A stretch of DNA of 64,000 bases from a bacterium (lineage in GTDB: Bacteria; Hydrothermota; DG-26; JAUXAN01): assembly GCA_030619885.1 (NCBI GenBank), contig JAUXAN010000005.1:17627-81626 (forward strand), read 5' to 3'. This document shows, one piece after another, positions 13,902 to 64,000 of this stretch (the first letter of the stretch is position 1; every line of letters begins with the position of its first letter). A model generated the notes under the pieces. It was not told the DNA's origin, ran no database searches, and saw nothing but the letters and a program-made list of their open reading frames with translations. The position numbers were made by a program, and so were the translations under genes.

Positions 13902-13979
13902 CATATAACGGTTTGCGTGTTTGCGAAGTGCAAAAGGCATTTGGGAGAGAGTAGCGAACTGCAAACACGCTGTTATATG
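13902..13979. other. attC-like site flanking an R-M module
   Basis: CATATAAC-GGTTT-GCGTGTTTGC ... GCAAACACGC-T-GTTATATG: complementary outer boxes with AAC/GTT cores plus complementary inner boxes. Confidence 0.65.
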
Positions 13980-14000
13980 AAGTTCGGCTTGGCAGTGAAT

Positions 14001-14708
14001 TCATTCTCTCTTACCTTTCTTAAGAACTATCTTCCCAAGTTTATGTGGTTCCACTCTGTAAACATCAAATTCAAAAATATTTTTGTGTGTTATTCCTATT
14101 TGGTATTCTATTCCTCCTCTATGTTGAGGACTATAGTATTTATTTTCCTTAACTTCTTTGCTTGACATAACCCAATACACCATCTTATCAATCCAGATTC
14201 CGATAAAGATAAAAACGTCAGCCATCTCCACTTTAATCTGCTGAAAATTCATCCAAAATGGTTCATCTGATTTATACTGCAACGCTTTTGAAACCAGACT
14301 CCCTTTCTTTTTTGTATTTATCGCTCGGCAAGATTTGACTTCGACTCTGACACCATTTATCCATAAGTCGTATTGTCCATCATAATCTTGATCGAGATTT
14401 TTGTCAGGCTTCTTAAATCTACTGTCTAAATCCATAATATGTTGATGCCACATCTCGCCAAATATTCGGGGAGCATATTCAAAAAAGTTCCTATATCGGT
14501 TAGATGAAACATAATCTTTTCTCAATTTTTCGTATTGTTTGAAAGTAATAGCCTTCCTATCAAGTAAAAACATTAACATGTACTCATATTTGTTAAAAGG
14601 GAAAGCCTCGGCCAAACTTTTTATTCTCCCCATTAATAGCTGTTGATTTTTTGCATTCAAAGATAAATTTAGTACTTCTAAACGTTGTTTCAGATGGTTT
14701 AAGTCCAT
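14001..14708 (-). CDS. Type II restriction endonuclease (PD-(D/E)XK type)
   Basis: DYDGQYDLWINGVRVEVKSCRA active-site-like motif; overlaps the start of a DNA methyltransferase gene. Confidence 0.75.
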   Translation of the reverse strand: MDLNHLKQRLEVLNLSLNAKNQQLLMGRIKSLAEAFPFNKYEYMLMFLLDRKAITFKQYEKLRKDYVSSNRYRNFFEYAPRIFGEMWHQHIMDLDSRFKKPDKNLDQDYDGQYDLWINGVRVEVKSCRAINTKKKGSLVSKALQYKSDEPFWMNFQQIKVEMADVFIFIGIWIDKMVYWVMSSKEVKENKYYSPQHRGGIEYQIGITHKNIFEFDVYRVEPHKLGKIVLKKGKRE

Positions 14709-15751
14709 CTTATTCTCTCCTTTTTATCTTCTATTTCAGGAAATGGATTTCTCCATTGCCATCCCGTCTTTTCAGTTTTTCTAAAATGTTCTAACCTCCT
14801 TATTGTAATCTCAGCAAATATTGGGTCAATATCAAATGTATAAGCCTTTCTTTTTAATCTTTCTCCAGCAATTAAAGTTGTCCCTGAGTGAGCGAAAAAG
14901 TCTACCACTATGTCTTTTTCACTTGTTGCTGATGAAATTATTCTTTCTATTGCCTTTAAAGGTTTTTGGGCATAGCACCCAGGGACATTTTCTTCCATTC
15001 TATAAAATACTTGCTGAATATCTACCCACACATTTCCGGCTCTTATATACTTTGATTTGCTCCGTTCCAAGTTTTCTGTAATTCTGCCATTCACTTCTTT
15101 GTAATATCCTCTCAATATCTTAGGAATGTCTGTATACTCAGCTTCCACATTAAATTCTGGATTTCCTTTAATATAATATAAGAGTTCCTGTCTAACCCAC
15201 ATCCAGTTTTTCTGTGTTCCATAACCTCTCTGATTTCTTAATGTAATAATATTTCTAGGTTTTAGTTCCTTAAATGTTCTCATCATAATAATAAAATCTG
15301 GAAGAGGTTGAAGATTGTCTTTGTAATCCGCACCTAACCATATGTATATATGGGCATTTTTATCCATCGCTAAAATCGCATTTCGCATCCATTTCTCTGA
15401 AAACTCCAAATATTTTTCTATGTCTATCTTAAAGAGCGCGTTTGTGTTTGCATTTCCCACTGGCACATTATAAGGTGGGTCATTTACAACTAATTTTGCT
15501 TTTTCCACACCCATTATTTTTTTTACATCTTCCAGTTTTGTTGCATCTAATACGCCTACCTTGTGTCCATTAACTGGGTCCTCCCATATATCTCTATACT
15601 TTAACCTGCATAATGGTAATATCTTTTTTTGTGATTTTCCATGAAGGTCTAAGCGCTCAAGTTCCTCAGTAGTTCTACCTTTCTTCTCTACGCCTTTCTT
15701 AGTCAACAATTCACTACCAAATAAACTCAAGGTTTCTGTCTTATTTCGCAT
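14699..15751 (-). CDS. DNA methyltransferase (amino-MTase, DPPY type)
   Basis: VNDPPYNVPVGN catalytic motif IV; VVDFFAHSGTTLIAGERLKRKAYTFDIDP SAM motif. Confidence 0.9.
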   Translation of the reverse strand: MRNKTETLSLFGSELLTKKGVEKKGRTTEELERLDLHGKSQKKILPLCRLKYRDIWEDPVNGHKVGVLDATKLEDVKKIMGVEKAKLVVNDPPYNVPVGNANTNALFKIDIEKYLEFSEKWMRNAILAMDKNAHIYIWLGADYKDNLQPLPDFIIMMRTFKELKPRNIITLRNQRGYGTQKNWMWVRQELLYYIKGNPEFNVEAEYTDIPKILRGYYKEVNGRITENLERSKSKYIRAGNVWVDIQQVFYRMEENVPGCYAQKPLKAIERIISSATSEKDIVVDFFAHSGTTLIAGERLKRKAYTFDIDPIFAEITIRRLEHFRKTEKTGWQWRNPFPEIEDKKERIRWT

Positions 15752-15997
15752 AATCTATCTCCCAAAATACATTTATAAAATCTGCCAAGCCGAATGTCAT
15801 ATAATTTGTTTGTATACGACATAGTGTCGTATATACCCCCCTATGGATGATACCTGCCTCCCAATATGGAAGAGCGACTGTAATCTTTCTCGGTTGTTCA
15901 GGTTCTATTCTGATTCTATTTGTTTCCGTCCCTCTCATTTATATCAATTATATATGTCCCACTCGGTTTTTGTCAAGGAAAATATTGCAACTACAAT

Positions 15998-52405: not shown

Positions 52406-52662
52406 ATTTATCATTTTATCATTTATGTTACAGATTGTCAAGATAAAAATAACCACGAATTCCGCTAATTACACGAACCCACCTACTAAATTCCTATCCG
52501 TCAAGAAAAACTGACCACAGAGAACACAGAGAAAAAAGGACACCCCTTCCACTCATACAATTCTGGGTGGGGATGGGAGGACACAGAGATTAAATCTCTC
52601 TATGTGCTCTCTGATGTCTCTGTGACCTCTGTGGTTTAATGTATACTTTTCTATGCGATCAA

Positions 52663-52725
52663 GCCAAAAAAAACACTGAATTTGCAAGAAATTTATTGAA
52701 AACTCTTCGCAATTGCCTGTATCGT
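52663..52725. repeat. Dispersed about 65-bp AT-rich repeat, copy 3
   Basis: ATCAAGCCAAAAAAAACACTGAATTTGCAAGAAATTTATTGAAAACTCTTCGCAATTGCC. Confidence 0.75.
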
Positions 52726-52804
52726 TTTGGACTAAAATAGAGACCGTCCCCATTTTTTCGTCTCTGTTCCTACCTTATAAACTGTTTTCTTCACTCTAAA
52801 TTTT

Positions 52805-52908
52805 ATTTCCTGTCGCAGACCCGTCCCGACTAGTCGGGATTCGTAGGGATATGGGATCCGTATGGGAAGACACCGAGTTTTGTAATTTGGTGGACTGACC
52901 CCAAAAGC
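52805..52908. repeat. Partial copy D of the accessory-island repeat
   Basis: TTTATTTCCTGTCGCAGACCCGTCCCGACTAGTCGGGATTCGTAGGGATATGGGATCCGTATGGGAAG...GACTGACCCCAAAAGC. Confidence 0.85.
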
Positions 52909-52915
52909 ATTCGGG

Positions 52916-53455
52916 TTAGCCGGCTCCAGGCTTCTCTACAAGGTGCATCAACAAACTAACCACCCCGGTCGTGATTACAGTCTTGAAGACGAGCGCGCCG
53001 ATCGCGCAGGCCCCGTAGAAACCAAGAATCGTGTTTAGCGGGAAGGGAAAGAAGCGAGGGATACCTAGCTGACCCCCTTGCGCAGCGCTCAAGACGTGAT
53101 GGCCGCCAAACCAGAACAATACGGGGATGATGATGAAGGAAAAAGCGGGCAGGCTTGAGTACAGGGCCAGAAGAAACGACAGTTTCACGGCAGGGCGCGC
53201 TGACGTGCGACGCCTGAGCCAGAAACCGAGAGCAATACCCCACACAAAGGCAAGTCCAACACTAAACACCGGAATCCCCATCCCCATGACGAGAAAAACA
53301 CACTCGAGAAAATAGATGCCAATTACGACCCCAAGGCAAGGGAAGATTCCTCTTGCAGCATCGTTGATTCGCCGAAGACGGCTTGCGATGGGAACGGCAC
53401 ACGCAAGACCAGTTACTAGATTCACTATGACTAAGACGTATTCAGGCGCTTCCAT
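52916..53455 (-). CDS. Hypothetical polytopic membrane protein (GC-rich, likely recently acquired)
   Basis: 179 aa; visibly higher GC than neighbours; TAA stop lies within GGCTAACC. Confidence 0.65.
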   Translation of the reverse strand: MEAPEYVLVIVNLVTGLACAVPIASRLRRINDAARGIFPCLGVVIGIYFLECVFLVMGMGIPVFSVGLAFVWGIALGFWLRRRTSARPAVKLSFLLALYSSLPAFSFIIIPVLFWFGGHHVLSAAQGGQLGIPRFFPFPLNTILGFYGACAIGALVFKTVITTGVVSLLMHLVEKPGAG

Positions 53456-53487
53456 CGCCCCCTTCTTTCAATCCGATGTCCGATAAC

Positions 53488-53742
53488 GTCAGACTGTGTG
53501 AAAACTCTTGCACAAATTTATTCATTCTATTATAATTATAATCATATAAAAATATCAGAATGTCAAGTCCGAAGGATCCGTATGGAGAGGAAGAATGCAA
53601 TACATGGAGGGACAACCAAGAAACCAGACAATTTTATTTCCTGTCACAGACCCGTCCCGACTAGTCGGGATCCGTAGGGATATGGGATCCGTATGGGAAG
53701 GCACCGAGTTTTGTAATTTGGTGGACTGACCCCAAAAGCGAC
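53488..53742. repeat. Accessory-island repeat copy A
   Basis: GTCAGACTGTGTGAAAACTCTTGC...GACTGACCCCAAAAGCGACC; near-identical to 58618 and 61602 copies. Confidence 0.92.
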
Positions 53743-53894
53743 CTATATTCTGTTCATAGGATACAGGTTTATACCTGGGCATAAAATCCACCTCCCTGAA
53801 AGAAATGTCATATAAAAATTATACTATTTTTCTACCCGAAAGCAACTAAATTTTTTTTGAATTCTCTAAAATAAAGGACTTTTTCGACAGTCTC

Positions 53895-56734
53895 GTTATC
53901 TGCCGTAGCCCGTAGCCTTAAATCCCATATTTCTCCTCCCTTTTTTTAAATGCCTCTTTACCACCCTCTAATATTGGCATGATATCTTCACGTATCTTCA
54001 AATCTTCTAATGCCCCTAACTTGTAAGAAATCTTGTTATTCTCAAATTCTGCAACAATTATCTGTTCTGCATCGGTATTGACAACAAGATTTGCATTATT
54101 TGTGGCGATTAGAATTTGCCTTTTCTTTTTAGCCTCTCTAAAAGCTCCGACAAGTTCACCATAAATAAATTTGTTATCTAAACTCTCTTCTGGTTGATCT
54201 ACAATCAACGGATAATCTCCCTCTGCCAAGAATAGCTTTAACAAAACCGTTCCTTTCTGTCCCATTGATAGTTTGTCCATTGATATTCCTTTGAAAAGGA
54301 TTTCTGTGCTCAATGAAAAATAATTCCCAAAAGTCCATTTATAAAAATCGTAACTCGTTCTTGTTCTCTTTAAGAATTTCTTATTCTCAAATATTTTTTG
54401 GATAAACTCCTTAAGAGACTCCACCAATTTCTCTAAAGTATTCTCAGTAATTGCAATATCCAGCAATTCAGCACATTTTTCTACTTCGTCTATATTGATT
54501 TTCCTCTGATCCAAAATATCTGATCCAAATTCTACAAATCTGTCCTTGTCAAAGTAGATGCTTGATTTGAAATCAATTCCACTCATTATTTCACTTTTAC
54601 CTATTGAAAACACCTCAATAACCTTTTTATAATATTCTTTCCACTCCCAATATTTGCTTAAGAGAGTTTTGTATTTTTCCATTCTCTCACTTTCAAGCGA
54701 CTTTATTTTCTCTTTTTTGTTTTCCAATTGTTCTAATTGTTTTTCCAAAGATCCAATATCGGTTCTTATACTCTCTATTTCTTTAAGGAGTTCAGCATGT
54801 GTTTTTTCAACTCCAGAAAGTTGACTTAGCTGTTCTTTTTTCTTTTCAATTTGTTTTGTAACATCCTCAATTCCTTGGGGGATAAGTTCAAGACCTTTTT
54901 TGATTGCATCGAGTTGAGGTTTGAAATCTAATTGTGGAATTGTCAGATCAATCATTAACTCAGACAACTCACGATTCAAGTCATTTATAGTGTAGTTAGA
55001 ATCATCCAAAAACCTCTCCAAATCACCTTTAAATTGTTCCAACTTAGTTTTAATACCTTCGAGTTTGGAATGGTTTATTCGTAGTTCAGTCTCTTCTCCT
55101 TTTAGTTTCTCAATGCTTTCTTTAATACCTTCTTCCATACTTTCTGTAAGTTTTCTAAGTTCATCTTCTTTGTTTTTTAACTCTCCTTCTTTGATTCCTT
55201 TTTTACCTGTAATTTCGTCCACAACTTGCTTTTTTGTGTCTTCTTCGAGTTCATATATTTCCCTGTTAATTTCATCAATTCGTTTGGTAATTTTATAAAT
55301 TTCGTCTCTTATCTCGTCAAATTTTTGTTTATATCCTCCATCTATTACCTCTTTATTGCTGAAAATGATTTCTTGTATCTTATTATCCAGTTTTTGTCTA
55401 TCTCCACTGTATTCTTCTATCTTGCCTTGTGGAAGATATGTAATCATTGTATCCTGAAAGAATTCTTCTTCTGTAAGTTCTTTTGAAAATTCTCCTATAT
55501 CTTCTCCGATGAATTCTATTTTAACTTCTAAATCATGTTTCTGGTCTTCAATTCTTTGAACAAAGGAATTTCTATCTTTCCCTGCTCTTTTACACCTATC
55601 TTCAAAACAATTCGCTATCAGGTCTAATAATGCTGTCTTCCCACTTCCTTTCCCGCCTGCAACTGCAATTAAGTTTCTATTTAATAGTATCTCCTGTTCC
55701 TCAATTGATAGTTCATCACTTATCCGGGAATTTTGGATTTTTATAGAGCTTAATGTATAGATATTTTTTCGGTATTCTGGATTTTTGAGCTGAACTCTAA
55801 CCCTTTCTTCGGGTTCGTAAACGATTTGCTTTAACCCTTCAAAAGTAGGATCTGCTTTTATCCAGCAAAATCTATCTTCATCAGGTTTACAAAGTTTTTC
55901 AAAAGAGTGAGCGTCTGAACCATGAATACAGGGTTTTAGAGAATCAAACTCATTCATAAAATCTTCAGGACTTGAATGTTTTTTTCCGAGGCCAAAATCT
56001 CTTGTATTTAGATTAGAAGAAAAGATCGCGTGTGATTTCACAAGAATTTCCTTTCGTGTAAGGTGTCCTTGACCATTCCAACTAATAGAATCCCACCCTT
56101 CTTCTACAAGCACCAGCAGATATTTACTGCCAAAAATAGAATCTTTTTCCTTTAAAACTTTCGTTATTTCACCTAAGGAAACAGTAATGTTCTCACAACC
56201 CACAATATAATCAGATTTTCCACTAAATTTTTCGTGTTGTTGTTTCAAAGTCTTTCCTATCTCTTCAATATTTCCTCTTGTGAGTTTTCTTGGTTCTGCA
56301 TTGGGTGCCTGTATGTGAAGCTCTTCAAGAAATTCTATCTCAATTTTGTCGAGGGCTATTTGGTCACTGAAAATTACGTGATAATTTAGCTTTTTCCCTC
56401 CAATAAGCTTATCAAGCCTGAACTCGATATTTGGTAAAATCAAGTCAAAATTTTGAAGCCTACCTTCCTTCCTATACTCTAACACTTTTTTATAGCCATC
56501 GATGGTGAAGTAATCGGTTATACCTATTACAGAGATATCTGATACTTCCTCAAGTTCGCTAATATATTTCTCCCAAATATTGCCTTTGTATTTCTCCTTT
56601 TCTTCTTCATTGAGGAACCTAAACTGATGATGGAAAGATGCTGGTGTATGGACATGCAAATCCCATTTTCTCCATACAGATCCTCTGTTCATCTAAATAT
56701 CCTCCTGCTTTTTAACAAGGCTATGGCAGATAAC
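53895..56734 (-). other. Cassette-like module with complementary ends GTTATCTGCCGTAGCC/GGCTATGGCAGATAAC
   Basis: 15 of 16 bp complementary ends around one CDS. Confidence 0.65.
53918..56692 (-). CDS. TrlF-like protein: PHP phosphoesterase domain fused to SMC/ABC-type ATPase
   Basis: WDLHVHTPASFHH (PHP), PCIHGSDAHSFE; VAGGKGSGKTALLDLIA Walker A, long coiled coil, QKGTVLLKLFLAEGDYPLIVDQPEESLDNKFIY signature/Walker B. Confidence 0.85.
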   Translation of the reverse strand: MNRGSVWRKWDLHVHTPASFHHQFRFLNEEEKEKYKGNIWEKYISELEEVSDISVIGITDYFTIDGYKKVLEYRKEGRLQNFDLILPNIEFRLDKLIGGKKLNYHVIFSDQIALDKIEIEFLEELHIQAPNAEPRKLTRGNIEEIGKTLKQQHEKFSGKSDYIVGCENITVSLGEITKVLKEKDSIFGSKYLLVLVEEGWDSISWNGQGHLTRKEILVKSHAIFSSNLNTRDFGLGKKHSSPEDFMNEFDSLKPCIHGSDAHSFEKLCKPDEDRFCWIKADPTFEGLKQIVYEPEERVRVQLKNPEYRKNIYTLSSIKIQNSRISDELSIEEQEILLNRNLIAVAGGKGSGKTALLDLIANCFEDRCKRAGKDRNSFVQRIEDQKHDLEVKIEFIGEDIGEFSKELTEEEFFQDTMITYLPQGKIEEYSGDRQKLDNKIQEIIFSNKEVIDGGYKQKFDEIRDEIYKITKRIDEINREIYELEEDTKKQVVDEITGKKGIKEGELKNKEDELRKLTESMEEGIKESIEKLKGEETELRINHSKLEGIKTKLEQFKGDLERFLDDSNYTINDLNRELSELMIDLTIPQLDFKPQLDAIKKGLELIPQGIEDVTKQIEKKKEQLSQLSGVEKTHAELLKEIESIRTDIGSLEKQLEQLENKKEKIKSLESERMEKYKTLLSKYWEWKEYYKKVIEVFSIGKSEIMSGIDFKSSIYFDKDRFVEFGSDILDQRKINIDEVEKCAELLDIAITENTLEKLVESLKEFIQKIFENKKFLKRTRTSYDFYKWTFGNYFSLSTEILFKGISMDKLSMGQKGTVLLKLFLAEGDYPLIVDQPEESLDNKFIYGELVGAFREAKKKRQILIATNNANLVVNTDAEQIIVAEFENNKISYKLGALEDLKIREDIMPILEGGKEAFKKREEKYGI

Positions 56735-56813
56735 GTTCCCAGCATAAAAGAAGTTTTTGCGAAGCAAAAATTTGGGTGAGCCCATAGGGCGAACCTTTTA
56801 TGCTGTGTTATAC
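56728..56813. other. attC-like site
   Basis: AGATAAC-GTTCC-CAGCATAAAAG ... CTTTTATGCTG-T-GTTATAC. Confidence 0.7.
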
Positions 56814-56833
56814 GCCGTATGGTGCAATAACTT

Positions 56834-57754
56834 TTAAAATAATCTTCCTTGTCTTTGTTCATCTTTCAATCTGTTTTCTGCGGTTTTACAATATTCCTCT
56901 GAAATATCTATGCCAATATATCTTCTTTTTAACTTATATGCTACTAATGTAGTAGTTCCCACGCCGTTGAATGGATCCAGAACAATATCATCTTGATAAC
57001 TAAACAGCTTTAATAATCTTATCACTAGTTCTTCTGGAAACATCGCAGGATGGTTATATTTTTTCATGTTTCTTTCTGGTGCAATATCCCACTTTGCGTA
57101 AACCCACTTTTTAAATTCATCCCCTATAATATCTATCTTATTAGAATCACCTACCTTTTTGTGTGATTCTTTACAAAATACCTCAATAAATTCCCAGGTA
57201 TATTTCAAATAAGGCATACTTGGACTTTTCCAACTTCCCCAAGCAGTATATTTACAATTATAATTATGCTTTTCCCAAAGAATTTCAGCTTTCCAAAGTA
57301 ATCCTAATTCTAATAATTGTCTTGAAATAATATGATGTGTAGGCATGTAATCTGAAAACAAAGGCTGAATATTAACGCATAACCTTCCAGCAGGTTTTAG
57401 AACACGATAGCACTCTTTCCATATTCGATTTAATTTGTCAAAGTAATCTTGCCAATATACAGCGTCCTTATTCTTGTCATCTTTATATTCCAATCCAAAA
57501 TTATACGGTGGTGAGGTTATAATAATATCAATAGAATTACATGGGAAATCCTTTAAAACAATTTCACTATCCCCACAAATAATTATATTTACTAAATTCG
57601 ATATATCTATTTGGGGAATACCCTTTGTCTCTTTTAAATGCTTTGTTCCCCCACGAATTTTTTCTTTCTTTTCTCGGTCAATAACTTTTTTTTCTCGATT
57701 CAAAAGTTTAGCATCAGGATATATATTCTTCATTTTTTGATGGCTCTCTTTCAT
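56834..57754 (-). CDS. DNA methyltransferase (TSPPY type)
   Basis: IDIIITSPPYNFGLEYKDD; VLDPFNGVGTTTLVAYKLKRRYIGIDISEEYC. Confidence 0.9.
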   Translation of the reverse strand: MKESHQKMKNIYPDAKLLNREKKVIDREKKEKIRGGTKHLKETKGIPQIDISNLVNIIICGDSEIVLKDFPCNSIDIIITSPPYNFGLEYKDDKNKDAVYWQDYFDKLNRIWKECYRVLKPAGRLCVNIQPLFSDYMPTHHIISRQLLELGLLWKAEILWEKHNYNCKYTAWGSWKSPSMPYLKYTWEFIEVFCKESHKKVGDSNKIDIIGDEFKKWVYAKWDIAPERNMKKYNHPAMFPEELVIRLLKLFSYQDDIVLDPFNGVGTTTLVAYKLKRRYIGIDISEEYCKTAENRLKDEQRQGRLF

Positions 57755-58575
57755 ATCATCTTACCTCTTTTTATTCTTTCTTTAACATTATACCAGTCAG
57801 AATTTATATGTGACTCAACAAATTTAAATAAGTCATATACAACATCTTCGTATATCGGGTTTTTCCTTCTTTCTCTTTTCAAGACATATATTTGGTCTAT
57901 GGAAGAATATTTTGGATCAACATCTAAGCTGACTTCATAGGTTTCTGTAACTATCAAAAAGATACAATATGGATTACCTTTTTTAATCTTCTCTGCCGTT
58001 GAAGCTGAACCTTCATACATTGTTTTATCAAGGTAGGTCTTACATTCAATAGAAACTATTGGGACATAGATTTTGCGTTCCTGCCAAATTTCGTTATTTG
58101 AAACCCTTGATTTTAGAATTACCTCTTTAGAAATAGAAAAATCCTGGTTTTTAACATTTATAACAATATTTGAACTATCCTCAAATGCATCAATATTTGG
58201 CGGAGCAAAAAATAAATTAGTATATGCCTGAGTCCGTCCCCAATATATATGTTTATTGGTCAATTTGCCAATGTCTTTGAACAAGTAATACATAAATTCT
58301 TCTGTAACGGAAGAATGTAATTGTGATTGTGAAGTAAAACCATACTTTCTCCCAGATTCCTTCTTGAACTTTTGTTGGTCTATAAATGTTTTGTAGTTGT
58401 TTAGAAGTTTTACTTTCTTTTTTATATCCTTTCTGGTTGTTCCAGTAATCATCAGATTATCTTCTTTCCATTTACGATACTTTGTCTTAATTTCATCCAG
58501 TAACTTCTTATTTTGGGATTGCTTTTCAACTCTAATTTTGTGTTCTAAATTGTCTCCGTGAATAAAATTACTCAT
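57751..58575 (-). CDS. Type II restriction endonuclease, Bpu10I-like
   Basis: VPIVSIECKTYLDKTMYEGSASTAEKIKKGNPYCIFLIVTETYEVSLDVDPKYSSIDQIYVLK; overlaps the MTase start. Confidence 0.72.
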   Translation of the reverse strand: MSNFIHGDNLEHKIRVEKQSQNKKLLDEIKTKYRKWKEDNLMITGTTRKDIKKKVKLLNNYKTFIDQQKFKKESGRKYGFTSQSQLHSSVTEEFMYYLFKDIGKLTNKHIYWGRTQAYTNLFFAPPNIDAFEDSSNIVINVKNQDFSISKEVILKSRVSNNEIWQERKIYVPIVSIECKTYLDKTMYEGSASTAEKIKKGNPYCIFLIVTETYEVSLDVDPKYSSIDQIYVLKRERRKNPIYEDVVYDLFKFVESHINSDWYNVKERIKRGKMI

Positions 58576-58617
58576 CTTTTTTCCCTCCTTAAATTATCGC
58601 ACTATATGGCGTATAAC

Positions 58618-58873
58618 GTCAGACTGTGTGAAAACTCTTGCAAAATTTTATTCATTCTATTATAATTATAATCATATAAAAATATCAGAATGTCAAGTCC
58701 GAAGGATCCGTATGGAGAGGAAAAATGCAATACATAGAGGGACAACCAAGAAACCAGACAATTTTATTTCCTGTCACAGACCCGTCCCGACTAGTCGGGA
58801 TCCGTAGGGATATGGGATCCGTATGGGAAGGCACCGAGTTTTGTAATTTGGTGGACTGACCCCAAAAGCGACC
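58618..58873. repeat. Accessory-island repeat copy B
   Basis: Near-identical to copy A over about 250 bp; ends before the GACCCCCGTCGGGGGC hairpin. Confidence 0.92.
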
Positions 58874-58904
58874 CCCGTCGGGGGCAAAAGATAAAAATTC
58901 ATTC

Positions 58905-60299
58905 TTATCCTCCTATAGCTTTTGAAACTATTATACCGATCAACGAAGTCAATTGTTGTTCAAACTCACTGCTAACATCAGAGGCTCCACTTTTAGCATG
59001 AACTATTTCATGTAAAAGAGTTCCAGCATAGTCTTTAAGACTTCTAAGTTGACCTCGCTTAATAATTATCCTCCCTGTTGATTCCTCCCATAATCCCGAT
59101 GCTTCTGTGAAAGAATGCGATTCCAGTCTCATAGTTTCTGATATCTTTATCTCTCTCACTTTTCGAGGCTTTCCGCCTATAAAACTTATAATTGCATCAG
59201 TCATTCTGAAAATTTCTTTTTCTTTGGGAGTCATGTCTTTTTCGTCAATAAATTTAAACTCAAAACTTTCATTCCATTCTCTCTTGAACTGATCCATATC
59301 TCGAATCAGATTACCTGAGATATCACGCAATCCTCTAATCTTCTCCTTTATATTTTCAGGTATAGTAACTATCTCATATCCATCGCTCCTCGCTTTATCA
59401 ACCATATCCGTCGCATACATGAGTTCCTCAGGTGTAAAGAAAACAACTTTTTCGAGAGAGTTCAGTAACTTACATGCATGAACGCTAACATCCGTCCACG
59501 TGAGTTCGTCATGAAGCGTTCCATCCTGATAACCCTTTAAATCGTTAACCAAGCTTTTTGCAATAATTTTACTCTTGCACGAAAGGAGAATGGATTTTAC
59601 TCTTTCGGAATAAGCACTCCGACCAACGTTGGTTCTTTCTCTATTTAATGCTTTACGAATAGCTTTAGTAAGAGAGGTTATGTTATAAGAAAATATGAAT
59701 CCCTCTTCTTCTGCAACTTTAACACCGTTGACGTAAATTCTGGCTGTCTCCTCCTTTTTCTCTAAAACTTCTCCATATTGTGTTGGTTCGAGAATTTTCT
59801 CTCCGGAAAATCTCAAGAATAAATCTTTTGCTTTCTCAATGTCCTTACCAGTGCAACCCTCTAGAATAAATTCGGTTCCAATGGAATTGAAGTCTGAAGG
59901 AGGATGAATATATGCGTGCAGTGTTATTACATCTTCAAAGTCATGTTTCTCTGATTTTCCAAGTGTTATATCTCCATGGCGGGATTTAATAAATACCTTT
60001 ACTCTTTTTCTATCAAATGTTGCAAGAGCATCTTTTAATCCGATGCCAAACTTTCCAATAACATTAGGATTTTTTAATTTTTCTTCATCCTCTTTTTGGG
60101 TCAGATGCTCGTATCTTAAACCACGTCCAAAATCCCTAATGTGCCACAGCCTCTTCTTATCCTTAAAGATTTCTATCTTTTTTGTACCAGTTAGGATTTC
60201 TTCATCTATGGCATTTGCTATTACTTCTCTAATGGCATGATATACTTCCCAATCCTCCAATATTTTTTCGATATTGAGGTCAAACTTCTTTCCGTCCAT
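58905..60299 (-). CDS. GHKL (Hsp90-type) ATPase domain fused to C-terminal HEXXH metalloprotease-like domain
   Basis: REVIANAIDEE, IRDFGRGL, NVIGKFGIGLKDALATF (GHKL N, G1, G2 boxes); LLHEIVHAKSGASDVSSEFEQQL at the C-terminus. Confidence 0.75.
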   Translation of the reverse strand: MDGKKFDLNIEKILEDWEVYHAIREVIANAIDEEILTGTKKIEIFKDKKRLWHIRDFGRGLRYEHLTQKEDEEKLKNPNVIGKFGIGLKDALATFDRKRVKVFIKSRHGDITLGKSEKHDFEDVITLHAYIHPPSDFNSIGTEFILEGCTGKDIEKAKDLFLRFSGEKILEPTQYGEVLEKKEETARIYVNGVKVAEEEGFIFSYNITSLTKAIRKALNRERTNVGRSAYSERVKSILLSCKSKIIAKSLVNDLKGYQDGTLHDELTWTDVSVHACKLLNSLEKVVFFTPEELMYATDMVDKARSDGYEIVTIPENIKEKIRGLRDISGNLIRDMDQFKREWNESFEFKFIDEKDMTPKEKEIFRMTDAIISFIGGKPRKVREIKISETMRLESHSFTEASGLWEESTGRIIIKRGQLRSLKDYAGTLLHEIVHAKSGASDVSSEFEQQLTSLIGIIVSKAIGG

Positions 60300-60340
60300 T
60301 ATACTTACACCCCAATAAACCCTTTGCCCCCGATTTCACT

Positions 60341-60640
60341 TAACGGCTCGGCGGGTATGCGAAGCCTTCGGTTTCGCCTTGGCGAAAGCAAGACTTCTGC
60401 CGAACCGAAGGTTCGAGTGGAAGGCTTGTCCATACGGATCCATCGGACGTGCCGAAGGTTTGGGCGAAGTGAGGCGAATCGTGTTTACGCTCTCGCTGAA
60501 ACTTCGCTGCATACCTGTTTGATAGTCCCGACAAGTCGGGATTCGTTCCGTTTGCCTCGCCCCGTGAGATAGCCAGCATCTAACGGGGCTCGCCGAACGA
60601 AGCCCAAACTATACCCGCCGAGCCGATAGGCAAAATGGAG
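60341..60640. other. attC-like GC-rich site with nested palindromes
   Basis: ACTTAAC-GGCTCGGCGGGTAT near 60341 and ATACCCGCCGAGCC-GATAGGC near 60614; long variable loop. Confidence 0.5.
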
Positions 60641-60653
60641 CGAAGCGACATTT

Positions 60654-60745
60654 TGCCTATCGTTTCCAGCATATACGACGTTGCGACCGAAGTGAGCAAT
60701 GTCCCGAAGGGCAAGGGCGTTAGCCCGCAGTGTATATGTTGTGTT
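60654..60745. other. attC-like site interrupted at its GTT core
   Basis: CCAGCATATACGACGTTGCGACCGAAGTGAGCAATGTCCCGAAGGGCAAGGGCGTTAGCCCGCAGTGTATATGTTGTGTT; close match to the 62495 site. Confidence 0.65.
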
Positions 60746-60863
60746 GAGACTGTCGAAAAACCCCTATAAACAACAAAAATGTTCTCCTTCACCTCTAAAA
60801 TCTCCTGATATTTAAGCACTTTCAAAATCTCCTTTCTCAAAAATCAAGTTTTTCGACAGTCTC
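60746..60863. mobile_element. 118-bp MITE-like element with IS1182-type termini
   Basis: GAGACTGTCGAAAAAC ... GTTTTTCGACAGTCTC, flanked on both sides by GTT. Confidence 0.7.
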
Positions 60864-61601
60864 GTTAGGCGACGTTTCTATCTCCCTTTTCTCCCTCTGC
60901 ATAATACCACATCTTCAATATCTATCTGACTTCTTATAAAGTCAGATAATTCTTTTGAACATTCAGCTAATCCAGTCACTATTCCTTCCTGTTCCTCTAT
61001 TCGCTCAAAAATTGAGATTTTCCTTTTTTCAGTACGCCGTAATATTTGAGCCGCATAGGAGCTACCTTCTTCAATAAATCGGTCATGGTTCCATTCATAT
61101 ATTGCTGAATTGATATAGGGAAATCGCTTTTCATCCGACCTATGTAAATCGAAAATTAGATATTCTATTGCTCCACCTTTTATGTGAACTAAATCAATAA
61201 TTCTTCTGCGAATATTTGGAGCGAATAGTTTCATAATCTCTTCTGATGTATCATCGCGTAGATGAGCCAATAGTAAATGCAACCTATGACGTTGTGAGTA
61301 TAATAGCCTTTTTAATACGTCAATTTCTTCTTTGCTAAAACTTTTCTTCTCTGCGTTTCTCTTAATTAGTGATAATATTTCTTGGGCATTATCTATAATA
61401 TCCTCAAGAGAAAGCTGTATTTCGATAATTTTTCTCTGAATATGTTTTTTCTTTTTGACCTTACCTTTGTCATAAAGTGACTTCAAACTATCTGTTATCA
61501 GTTTATATAAAGAAATCACGGGACCTAAATATTCTATCATCTTATTACCTCACATTTACTTTGTGAATATTTTAAACATATATATGAAATGTCGCCTAAC
61601 G
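60864..61601 (-). other. Cassette-like module, ends GTTAGGCGACGTTTC/GAAATGTCGCCTAAC
   Basis: 14 of 15 bp complementary ends around one CDS. Confidence 0.7.
60878..61540 (-). CDS. Hypothetical helical protein (220 aa)
   Basis: Full-length ORF filling the module. Confidence 0.65.
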   Translation of the reverse strand: MIEYLGPVISLYKLITDSLKSLYDKGKVKKKKHIQRKIIEIQLSLEDIIDNAQEILSLIKRNAEKKSFSKEEIDVLKRLLYSQRHRLHLLLAHLRDDTSEEIMKLFAPNIRRRIIDLVHIKGGAIEYLIFDLHRSDEKRFPYINSAIYEWNHDRFIEEGSSYAAQILRRTEKRKISIFERIEEQEGIVTGLAECSKELSDFIRSQIDIEDVVLCRGRKGR

Positions 61602-61882
61602 TCAGACTGTGTGAAAACTGTTGCAAAATTTTATTCATTCTATTATAATTATAATCATATAAAAATATGAGAATGTCAAGTCCGAAGGATCCGTTTGGAG
61701 AGGAAAAATGCAATACATAGAGGGACAACCAAGAAACCAGACAATTTTATTTCCTGTCGCAGATCCGTATGGGAAGGCACCGAGTTTTGTAATTTGGTGG
61801 ACTGACCCCAAAAGCGACCCCTACCCGAAAGCAACTAAATTTTTTTGAATTCTCTAAAATAAAGGACTTTTTCGACAGTCTC
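61602..61882. repeat. Accessory-island repeat copy C, with an internal deletion relative to A and B
   Basis: GTCAGACTGTGTGAAAACTGTTGC ... GGACTTTTTCGACAGTCTC; lacks the CCCGTCCCGACTAGTCGGGATCCGTAGGGATATGGGA segment. Confidence 0.9.
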
Positions 61883-62501
61883 GTTAGGCGACGTAAAATT
61901 GCTCATTTTCCATTTGTTTCTTTTTTCGTTTTTTCCCAAAATTCGACCTCCTTTTTTCTTCCTTTTGTCGAAACATTGTAACTTTTTATCAATAATGAAA
62001 AGAAAATAACCATGAATACAAAAGCTATCACAACCATAATAATCGTATTTACTCTGATTAGTAAGAATAATCCTAAAACACTATTTAATGAAAATAAAAG
62101 AGGAAATTCAGCATTAGAGATTACTCTACTGATAAATGACGTTTGTATTTTATGTTTTCCTCCTAAAGTTTCCCATTTAAGTCCAGCAATCTCTGTTTCG
62201 ATAAACACTTCAATATAGGCTGCTACTCTAAAAATAGCCTGAAGCCTTCTAATTTCATCAAACCATAAAAAGGCAATCAACAACGCCGATGAAAGAAATA
62301 ATATATAGTTATTCCATGCAAGCCCCACACCTATAACACCTAATGTAATTATTATAGCAAGATTGATAATTTGATGGCGTCTCTCCAAATAGTGTCTTAT
62401 TTCTGCACGTAATTGCCGATATTCTTCTAATTTGGCTTCCATGGTATTATTTTCGGAATCCTTACCCATTATATTTACCACCAGATTTTATTTCGCCTAA
62501 C
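61883..62501 (-). other. Cassette-like module, ends GTTAGGCGACGTAAAAT/ATTTTATTTCGCCTAAC
   Basis: About 15 of 17 bp complementary ends around one CDS. Confidence 0.7.
61903..62469 (-). CDS. Hypothetical membrane protein with four predicted TM segments
   Basis: IINLAIIITLGVIGVGLAW, ILFLSSALLIAFLWF, LLFSLNSVLGLFLLIRV, IIMVVIAFVFMVIFF. Confidence 0.68.
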   Translation of the reverse strand: MGKDSENNTMEAKLEEYRQLRAEIRHYLERRHQIINLAIIITLGVIGVGLAWNNYILFLSSALLIAFLWFDEIRRLQAIFRVAAYIEVFIETEIAGLKWETLGGKHKIQTSFISRVISNAEFPLLFSLNSVLGLFLLIRVNTIIMVVIAFVFMVIFFSLLIKSYNVSTKGRKKEVEFWEKTKKETNGK

Positions 62502-62584
62502 GTTCCCAGCATATGCGACGTGCGACCGAAGGGAGCAATGTCCCGAAGGGCAAGGGCGATAGCCCGTAGCGTATATGCTGTGTT
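62495..62584. other. attC-like site, abutted by an IS end
   Basis: GCCTAAC-GTTCC-CAGCATATGCG ... CGTATATGCTG-T-GTT. Confidence 0.72.
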
Positions 62585-64000
62585 GAGACTGTCGAAAAAG
62601 TCATTTTGGAAAAGTTCCATTCTTTCTAAATAGTCATTTTTCAACATCTAATTCTAATCTCTGTTTTGTTGAACTCGCAAAGTCCACATCCACATATATT
62701 TCCTGATCTTTTAGCCATATTGCATCCCATAACATGCAATTTTCCCAATATTATGCACTATACAATATAGCAACCATTGAATATTCGCCTTTGCTTTTCC
62801 TCGCAATGTAAGGTAATCCATCCTTTTTTGTGTCCGTATGTTTGCAAAAACAGGTTCTACTATCTTCATCCTCTCGCTATAAATCTGTCGCCCTTCTTCT
62901 GTATCAATCTTCTTAATCATCTCTTTTGAAAAGTTCCGTTCATGTTTTTCTATCGGTATCGATAAATACCTTCTCTTCGTCTCCTTTTTCTTAAGACATT
63001 TCTCTCTTAACTTACAACCAGTACAATCTTTCTGTCTTGAAACATATTTTCTTAACACATAATTCTTTATTTTGGCTCTCCTGTTATCCAGTCTCAGTTC
63101 TTTTCCATTGGGACAAATGTACACATCCTTTTCTTTGTTATATTGAAAATCTTCTCTCGTGTATTTTTTCCTCTTATCTGGTTTATGTCTATCTGCTGTA
63201 GCAAACCGTGGATCTCTTTTCCGAAAGTTTACATCTGGTATATAAGCATCAAGTTTTTCATCACTGCATTTTTTTAAATTATCTTCGCTATGATAATTGC
63301 TGTCAGCAATAAATGTCTTTCCTTCAAAATAGCTCTCTCCCAGTCCAATTGCTTTCGCATTTTCTTTTGCACCTTCTATCATTGGTCCTACATGCTCATT
63401 GTCCTGGCCGTTCCCAAATGCTTCTGAGTGCACAATAATTTGATGTTTGGAATCTACTAATGCCTGACAATTGTAACCTTGTATTACTCCATGTGATGTT
63501 TTCATTTTTGCCGATTCGTTGTCTGTTATATTACTTTTTATCTCTTTGCCTCGTTTCCCTTGTTTGCTTTCATTCTCTGAAAGCCATTTCTCTATCTTTT
63601 CTGCCTTCGCTTTCAATTTCTTCATTTGTTTCTCCTTACTCTCCTTATCATCATTGATTGCTTCCATCGAATCTTCCTCAGCATCTGTTTTTATATGCTT
63701 CTCCATCAGGTACTTGATTGTTTTTTCCACTTTCTCTTTCTTCTTCCTCAAGTCTCCTTTTGTTCCACTCCATTCTTTGGAAGCATTTGAGGACAATTTG
63801 CACCCATCTATTGAAAACTTTGTACCTTCAAGTAAATTCATTTCATTGCAGACGAGCAAAATATTTCTAAAAAGGGACATAATTTCTTCTTTCATTGATG
63901 ATACAAATTTCGCTATAGTTGAATGATCAGGTTCTGACCATCCTGAAAGTGCTATAAATGTTACGTTTTCTCTGCACACTCTCTCAATCTTTCTTGATGA
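62585..64000 (-). mobile_element. IS1182-type insertion sequence, truncated by the right window edge
   Basis: Left end GAGACTGTCGAAAAAG immediately after an attC GTT; contains the transposase CDS. Confidence 0.75.
62711..64000 (-). CDS. IS1182-family (DDE) transposase, 5' end outside the window
   Basis: SSRKIERVCRENVTFIALSGWSEPDHSTIAKF, KTSHGVIQGYNCQALVDSKHQIIV, FIADSNYHSEDNL, CTGCKLREKCLKK; frame open to base 64000. Confidence 0.88.
   Translation of the reverse strand, partial: SSRKIERVCRENVTFIALSGWSEPDHSTIAKFVSSMKEEIMSLFRNILLVCNEMNLLEGTKFSIDGCKLSSNASKEWSGTKGDLRKKKEKVEKTIKYLMEKHIKTDAEEDSMEAINDDKESKEKQMKKLKAKAEKIEKWLSENESKQGKRGKEIKSNITDNESAKMKTSHGVIQGYNCQALVDSKHQIIVHSEAFGNGQDNEHVGPMIEGAKENAKAIGLGESYFEGKTFIADSNYHSEDNLKKCSDEKLDAYIPDVNFRKRDPRFATADRHKPDKRKKYTREDFQYNKEKDVYICPNGKELRLDNRRAKIKNYVLRKYVSRQKDCTGCKLREKCLKKKETKRRYLSIPIEKHERNFSKEMIKKIDTEEGRQIYSERMKIVEPVFANIRTQKRMDYLTLRGKAKANIQWLLYCIVHNIGKIACYGMQYG

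Follow-up and report, generated by a model that had tools for sequence, protein, structure and literature searches.

A probable decaying array of integron-like cassettes in a candidate division WOR-3 genome, and a related integrase family without the IntI-specific domain

Locus and gene content

The window analysed here is a 64,000-nt stretch of contig C36 (JAUXAN010000005.1) from a metagenome-assembled genome (MAG) of candidate division WOR-3 (2.46 Mb, 97% complete); its right edge coincides with the end of the contig. Near that edge, at 52916-64000, lie four modules with complementary ends (cassettes A to D, within 53895-62501; Table 1), which abut at GTT/AAC, have stem-loop sites and carry genes that all point in one direction. 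On the minus strand each module consists of the start GTTANNYGNNAT, one or two genes, the inverse of the start and AAC, followed, where uninterrupted, by a site made up of AAC, 1 nt, an L'' arm, a loop region, an L' arm, 5 nt and GTT. The region is most probably a cassette array in decay, belonging to an integron-like system whose integrase is related to IntI but lacks the IntI-specific domain.

An initial annotation, made from the letters of the window, had proposed an integron-like array of defence gene cassettes. The four complementary end pairs on which it was based were recovered at the same positions, and the separating site AAC-GTTCC-CAGCATA..TATGCTG-T-GTT was found at 56732-56809 and again at 62499-62584. 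The proposal held for gene content and layout alike, with restriction-modification genes, a TrlF-family ATPase gene, attC-like folding sites and a single gene orientation. In dinucleotide-preserving shuffles of 52501-62700 (200 shuffles, start consensus GTTANNYGNN[AG]T), consensus-matched end pairs were absent from 199 and a single pair occurred in one, compared with all four modules in the real sequence. The raw arm scores (12-14.5) are singly only moderately rare; the result is significant through the consensus together with how many modules there are and how they abut.

A second locus (15938-13906) lies in the interval 13.8-16 kb, which had been marked for checking, and contains a further cassette with the same hallmarks at about 15805-13972 (cassette G). 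It is preceded by an attI and by a relic of an integrase N-terminus at 15938-15860. The earlier statement that no integrase is visible was nearly right, the exceptions being this relic and broken copies on other contigs; with regard to a cluster of attC sites lacking an integron integrase (CALIN; at least two attC sites recognised by the IntegronFinder covariance model and no IntI close by), the window showed several attC-like sites and, of integrases, relics only. Another cassette-attC-cassette stretch was observed on contig C7 of the host genome (L138 9945-11306), its second cassette carrying a methyltransferase-like gene.

Table 1. Features of the cassette array and of the second locus (window coordinates)
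Feature	Coordinates	Strand	Description
Relic of integrase N-terminus	15860..15938	-	MRGTETNRIRIEPEQPRKITVALPYW; resembles C70 copy MRRMKSNRIRITTAQQEKIAVALPYS
attI	15806..15835	-	Palindrome TATATACGACACTATGTCGTATA + CAAACAA, then cassette G
Cassette G	13972..15805	-	Ends ATTATATGACATTCGGCTTG / GTTATATGAAGTTCGGCTTG
Cassette G genes	14699-15751; 14001-14708	-	DNA methyltransferase; 235-aa partner (restriction-modification)
attC of cassette G	13910..13971	-	AAC-A-GCGTGTTTGC..GCAAACACGC-AAACC-GTT
Cassette F	52916..53487	-	3' end lost; start GTTATCGGACAT at 53487, fits consensus GTTANNYGNNAT
Cassette F gene	52916-53455	-	179 aa, without family match
Junction b1	53488..53894	.	IS1182-like remnant between cassette A AAC and cassette F GTT; outer ends AGACTGTGTGAAAAC / GAGACTGTCGAAAAAG
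Cassette A	53895..56734	-	Ends GTTATCTGCCATAGCC / GTTATCTGCCGTAGCC (reverse complement)
Cassette A gene	53918-56692	-	TrlF-family AAA-like ATPase (NF045780, 2.2e-169)
attC of cassette B	56735..56806	-	AAC-A-CAGCATAAAAGG..TTTTATGCTG-GGAAC-GTT; single-strand DNA fold z -5.0 and -5.7
Cassette B	56807..58617	-	N4/N6 DNA methyltransferase 56834-57754; Bpu10I-like restriction endonuclease 57751-58575
Junction b2	58618..58877	.	IS1182-like remnant separating cassettes B and E
Cassette E	58878..60344	-	Start GTTAAGTGAAATCGGGGGCAAA; 3' end truncated within its end arm (TTTTGCCCCCGA)
Cassette E gene	58905-60299	-	464 aa, weak sacsin-like ATP-binding match
26-nt inverted repeat	60333..60636	.	Arms 60333-60358 / 60611-60636, with GTTAAG and GATAGGC at the outer ends; probably an attC, long or decayed
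attC-type stem, core decayed	60659..60745	-	AAC ACAACATATACAC..GTATATGCTGGAAAC GAT
Miniature inverted-repeat transposable element (MITE)	60746..60863	.	Perfect 16-bp ends GAGACTGTCGAAAAAC; GTT/GTT on both sides (+ strand)
Cassette C	60864..61600	-	Gene 60878-61540, 220-aa product without known family
Junction b3	61601..61882	.	IS1182-like remnant separating cassettes C and D
Cassette D	61883..62501	-	Gene 61903-62481, 192-aa product without known family
attC directly upstream of cassette D	62502..62581	-	AAC-A-CAGCATATACG..GCATATGCTG-GGAAC-GTT
IS1182-family element	62585..64000	-	End GAGACTGTCG abuts attC core; transposase 62711-63979 (NF033551, 264.5 bits vs cut-off 270); cut by contig end

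Cassette ends and attC sites

Pairing of cassette ends was analysed in 31 cassettes, drawn from 14 loci, the window and two more contigs of the host genome. The two ends of a cassette paired at 11.7 of 16 positions, compared with 6.06 (standard deviation 0.36) in 10,000 permutations, a raw level that is inflated by the arm-score threshold with which the cassettes were gathered; the position-11 rule and gene orientation were not selected for. At position 11, A is present in all 31 starts and G (on the reverse complement) in 26 of the 31 ends, a difference that makes an A-C mismatch on the coding strand and a G-T pair on the bottom strand. Among arm mismatches at positions 4-16, bottom-strand G-T wobbles numbered 37 and top-strand ones 4 (11 vs 4 without position 11). 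Pairing extends over 9-22 bp. Class 1 cassettes of a Pseudomonas plasmid, used as a control, likewise pair over 8, 12 and 16 bp, without the position-11 rule; long end-complementarity is therefore not diagnostic, and the earlier suggestion that pairing beyond 7 bp marks a new system was dropped.

The stem-loop sites were compared with the described structure of attC (PMC2727003). In 20 sites, compensatory changes were found at all 10 stem pairs, with conserved AAAT and ACTTC at the tip. Of the RYYYAAC / GTTRRRY cores, AAC and GTT are nearly always kept and the outer letters partly (e.g. AGATAAC), and the L''/L' arms fold. The spacer is asymmetric, 1 nt opposite 4-5 nt, instead of about 5 nt on both arms with extra-helical L'' bases; no constant extra-helical base was seen in the predicted folds. 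A first attC scan with strict canonical core letters returned no site within the window, since the sites depart from the canonical form in their outer core letters and have spacers of 1 and 5 nt; it was relaxed to the actual geometry. The bottom strand gave the more stable predicted fold in 26 of 27 reconstructed cassette junctions, as it did in two of three class 1 controls, so that stronger bottom-strand folding is a shared trait.

The attI sites consist of palindromes of varying sequence followed by a short spacer and GTT; in the relatives, and at the relic in the window, they lie beside the integrase and end at the GTT of the first cassette. In 32 of 32 cassettes the longest open reading frame has the orientation that the sites predict. 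Promoter-like matches, both for Pc and at junctions, were no more frequent than in shuffles.

Integrase family

At least four broken integrase copies of one family are present in the host genome, on contigs C44, C58, C70 and C52, and on the first three of these cassettes adjoin the integrase pieces. In three integrase copies among the loci compared, in-frame internal deletions join the N-terminal to the C-terminal catalytic piece (L007 1357-1785, L022 664-936, L041 3718-4095), which may be due to chance or to selection. Fuller relatives, within the phylum and beyond, have the integrase immediately before the cassettes and in the same orientation; such loci were found in MAGs of WOR-3, Thermoanaerobaculaceae, Caldisericum, Nitrospirae, Dehalococcoidia, Ignavibacteriae, Bacteroidetes and archaea, a spread that includes WOR-3, Acidobacteriota, Nitrospirota, Ignavibacteriota, Caldisericota and archaea. 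Where about 1 kb or more of downstream sequence was available, a matching cassette followed nearly all cassette-associated members, the exceptions being L068 and L050, the latter with a cassette only further downstream. In an Ignavibacteriae MAG (BY39, L058 3322-12896), at least eight cassettes follow a full-length integrase of this kind.

The additional domain near patch III that is specific to IntI is missing from the family. The corresponding stretch measures 34-36 aa compared with 75 aa in IntI1 (about 41 residues fewer in all members), and the alignments to TIGR02249 and 2a3v both break there; the archaeal integrases L053 and L056 have only the short, 34-aa stretch. A full-length model (pLDDT, the predicted local distance difference test score, 78.8; pTM, the predicted template modelling score, 0.52) was closest to IntI4 (2a3v) and XerA. 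The N-terminal domain appears HARP-like in most members: its model (pLDDT 83) had the HARP domain of SMARCAL1 (4o66) as top Foldseek match (probability 0.93, E 0.078), Pfam HARP matched 6 of 13 members (best 5e-4), and a profile search placed 4o66 third (E 0.33); each of these lines is weak by itself, but they point the same way.

Sister integrases without the N-terminal domain had a convincing cassette downstream in no case. Two of them were observed inside units with cassette-like ends (GTTGAAC..; L063 981-3492, L070 9862-12248), which by their sequence are possibly self-mobile cassettes carrying their own integrase. Among viral contigs only two distant relatives were found, and among plasmids and phages distant relatives only.

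On a rival reading the array is an ordinary CALIN remnant left by a canonical IntI, the domain-less integrases being unrelated neighbours or IntI proteins that lost the domain recently. Integron-like layout, GTT/AAC cores and folded attC sites would fit it, and in Treponema, too, the integrase is known to be co-oriented with its cassettes; the best structural match, IntI4, would fit it as well. However, no integrase above the TIGR02249 cut-off was found in any of the 61 genomes of a sample of the phylum, and domain-less integrases lie 15-234 nt from the first cassette across many phyla. In the tree, which included UBA6260 (a candidate division WOR-3 bacterium of the same phylum, labelled Caldifarciminota in the tree output), the family forms a separate clade on one side of a 100/97 branch rather than being dispersed within IntI (100/99 branch), with Xer on a 100/97 branch, a placement limited relative to IntI by the three IntI sequences taken in. 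The class 1 control also differs with respect to the geometry of the spacer, the palindromes of attI and the rule at position 11, and the CALIN explanation is accordingly considered unlikely.

Insertions at the junctions

The initial annotation had described the modules as separated by sites such as AAC-GTTCC-CAGCATA...TATGCTG-T-GTT. Several of the separators are not plain attC sites: junctions of the AGACTGT/ACAGTCT type, considered as a second attC class, were rejected as such and assigned to IS1182-like and MITE insertions. The IS1182 element and related remnants break into or replace attC sites at five junctions in the window, and the interior of junction b1 can be aligned to b2 and b3. 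The MITE, to judge from its sequence, is an insertion into an attC core. In the window (60746-60863, 62585-64000) and at L022 147 and L024 6814, attC-like sites were observed with IS1182-type ends at their AAC/GTT core, GTT being duplicated in one case; this type of insertion sequence (IS) may target folded attC sites. The element end TTGACA..GTTTTCACACAGTCTGAC directly precedes cassette-like GTTA.. starts in L114 and L120 (contigs C13 and C28).

That the modules themselves are IS1182-like or MITE units, with transposon ends as their inverted ends, is suggested by the transposase gene, by GAGACTGTCG ends at several junctions and by the GTT duplicates flanking the MITE, but is very improbable: the IS ends occur at some junctions only, inside attC sites between AAC and GTT and never as cassette ends, whereas the cassette ends are of other sequence, vary among modules and flank unrelated genes without a transposase, and the same cassette type occurs in L053 and L058, where the junctions are plain stem-loop attC sites without IS1182. 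It is hardly credible that these are simply defence-island genes whose flanking palindromes are hairpins such as terminators, complementary by chance: although several genes are defence genes and terminator-like intergenic hairpins are common, consensus-matched pairs are essentially missing from shuffles, the cassettes' own ends covary across all 31, and terminator-like matches in the region are fewer than the shuffle mean.

Interpretation

The decaying integron-like array is thus the favoured explanation: it is integron-like by anatomy, and by the defining domain it is not a member of the integrons. Only broken integrase copies were found in the host genome, which makes it probable that the array either is inactive or owes its origin to an integrase that has since been lost or is missing from the assembly. 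The divergent recombination system suggested at first is supported, on grounds other than those first given: the domain-less integrase, the geometry of the sites, the wobble at position 11 and the palindromes of attI.

Intact relatives have the order integrase gene, attI, cassettes, all in one direction. By the proposed mechanism, one attC strand, most likely the bottom strand, would fold in the cell into a hairpin in which the cassette ends pair, followed by a bulge of 1 nt opposite 4-5 nt, the L stem and, at the tip, a branch. Cutting at the GTT core, the integrase would then link the cassette with attI or with a different attC. Its HARP-like N-terminal domain plausibly reads the folded single-strand/double-strand DNA, replacing the missing IntI domain, and the bottom-strand G-T wobbles (A-C mismatches on top) plausibly select the strand and hence fix gene orientation.

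Several points weigh against this account. Neither recombination nor an excision circle nor any change of cassettes between strains was observed, and an all-against-all comparison of cassettes among the loci found only distant methyltransferase relatives and thus no sign of recent exchange. Almost all loci compared come from MAGs, and the host offers broken integrases alone. The raw pairing level is raised by the way the cassettes were gathered, the missing extra-helical base is read from predicted folds, the bottom-strand preference also appears in class 1 controls, and the HARP assignment is weak by every single method.

Confidence and doubt are evenly balanced for the wider proposal of a second integron lineage, present across many bacterial phyla and in archaea, that would recombine folded sites without the IntI-specific domain; a HARP-like domain that reads DNA structure, together with strand-specific G-T wobbles, would stand in for that domain and for extra-helical bases. 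If such a system works, folded single-strand cassette capture is possible without the IntI-specific domain, and the family would be a natural counterpart for comparing the ways in which strand choice is encoded. It would also be an additional route of cassette trading across bacteria and archaea, carrying defence genes. The cassettes are comparable to those that spread antibiotic resistance, and there appears to be a second, little-noticed route of gene collection, archaea included.

Comparison with known systems

IntI is defined by its additional domain (PMC9668308). Because integrons are defined and searched for by that domain, a domain-less lineage would have been overlooked or filed as arrays without integrase. 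Domain-less integrases with cassette arrays were not described in the literature consulted (open-licence papers only), and a list of integron phyla does not contain WOR-3 (PMC8618304). We read the integrase lineage with such arrays, on the strength of sequence comparison, as a new variant of integron.

With integrons, CALIN included, the arrays share small co-oriented cassettes, a GTT core with an AAC partner, R and L arms in a folded attC, an attI beside the integrase and an IntI-related tyrosine recombinase. They differ in the integrase, from which the IntI-specific domain is missing and whose N-terminal domain is mostly HARP-like; in the R''-L'' spacer of 1 nt opposite 4-5 nt; in R arms of 9-22 bp with the position-11 wobble; in the palindromic attI; and in the conserved AAAT and ACTTC of the attC tip. 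The Treponema-type (reverse) integrons likewise have an integrase transcribed toward and with the cassettes (PMC3607928); their integrases are set apart by description only, being reported as IntI, which is defined by the additional domain (PMC9668308). Archaeal integrons (Ghaly et al. 2022) show the same integron layout in archaea; their IntIs are described with the additional domain (PMC9668308), which L053 and L056 lack.

Like XerA, XerC and XerD, the family has no IntI-specific domain, and it passes the NF040815 (XerA) cut-off of 220 bits (244, 232, 237 and 224 bits), a model described at NCBI as 'site-specific tyrosine recombinase/integron integrase'. Unlike them, it forms a separate clade and is associated with arrays of cassettes, not with one dif site on the chromosome (dif was not searched for). 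As a separate clade beside IntI, the family bears on the origin of integron integrases from Xer-type recombinases.

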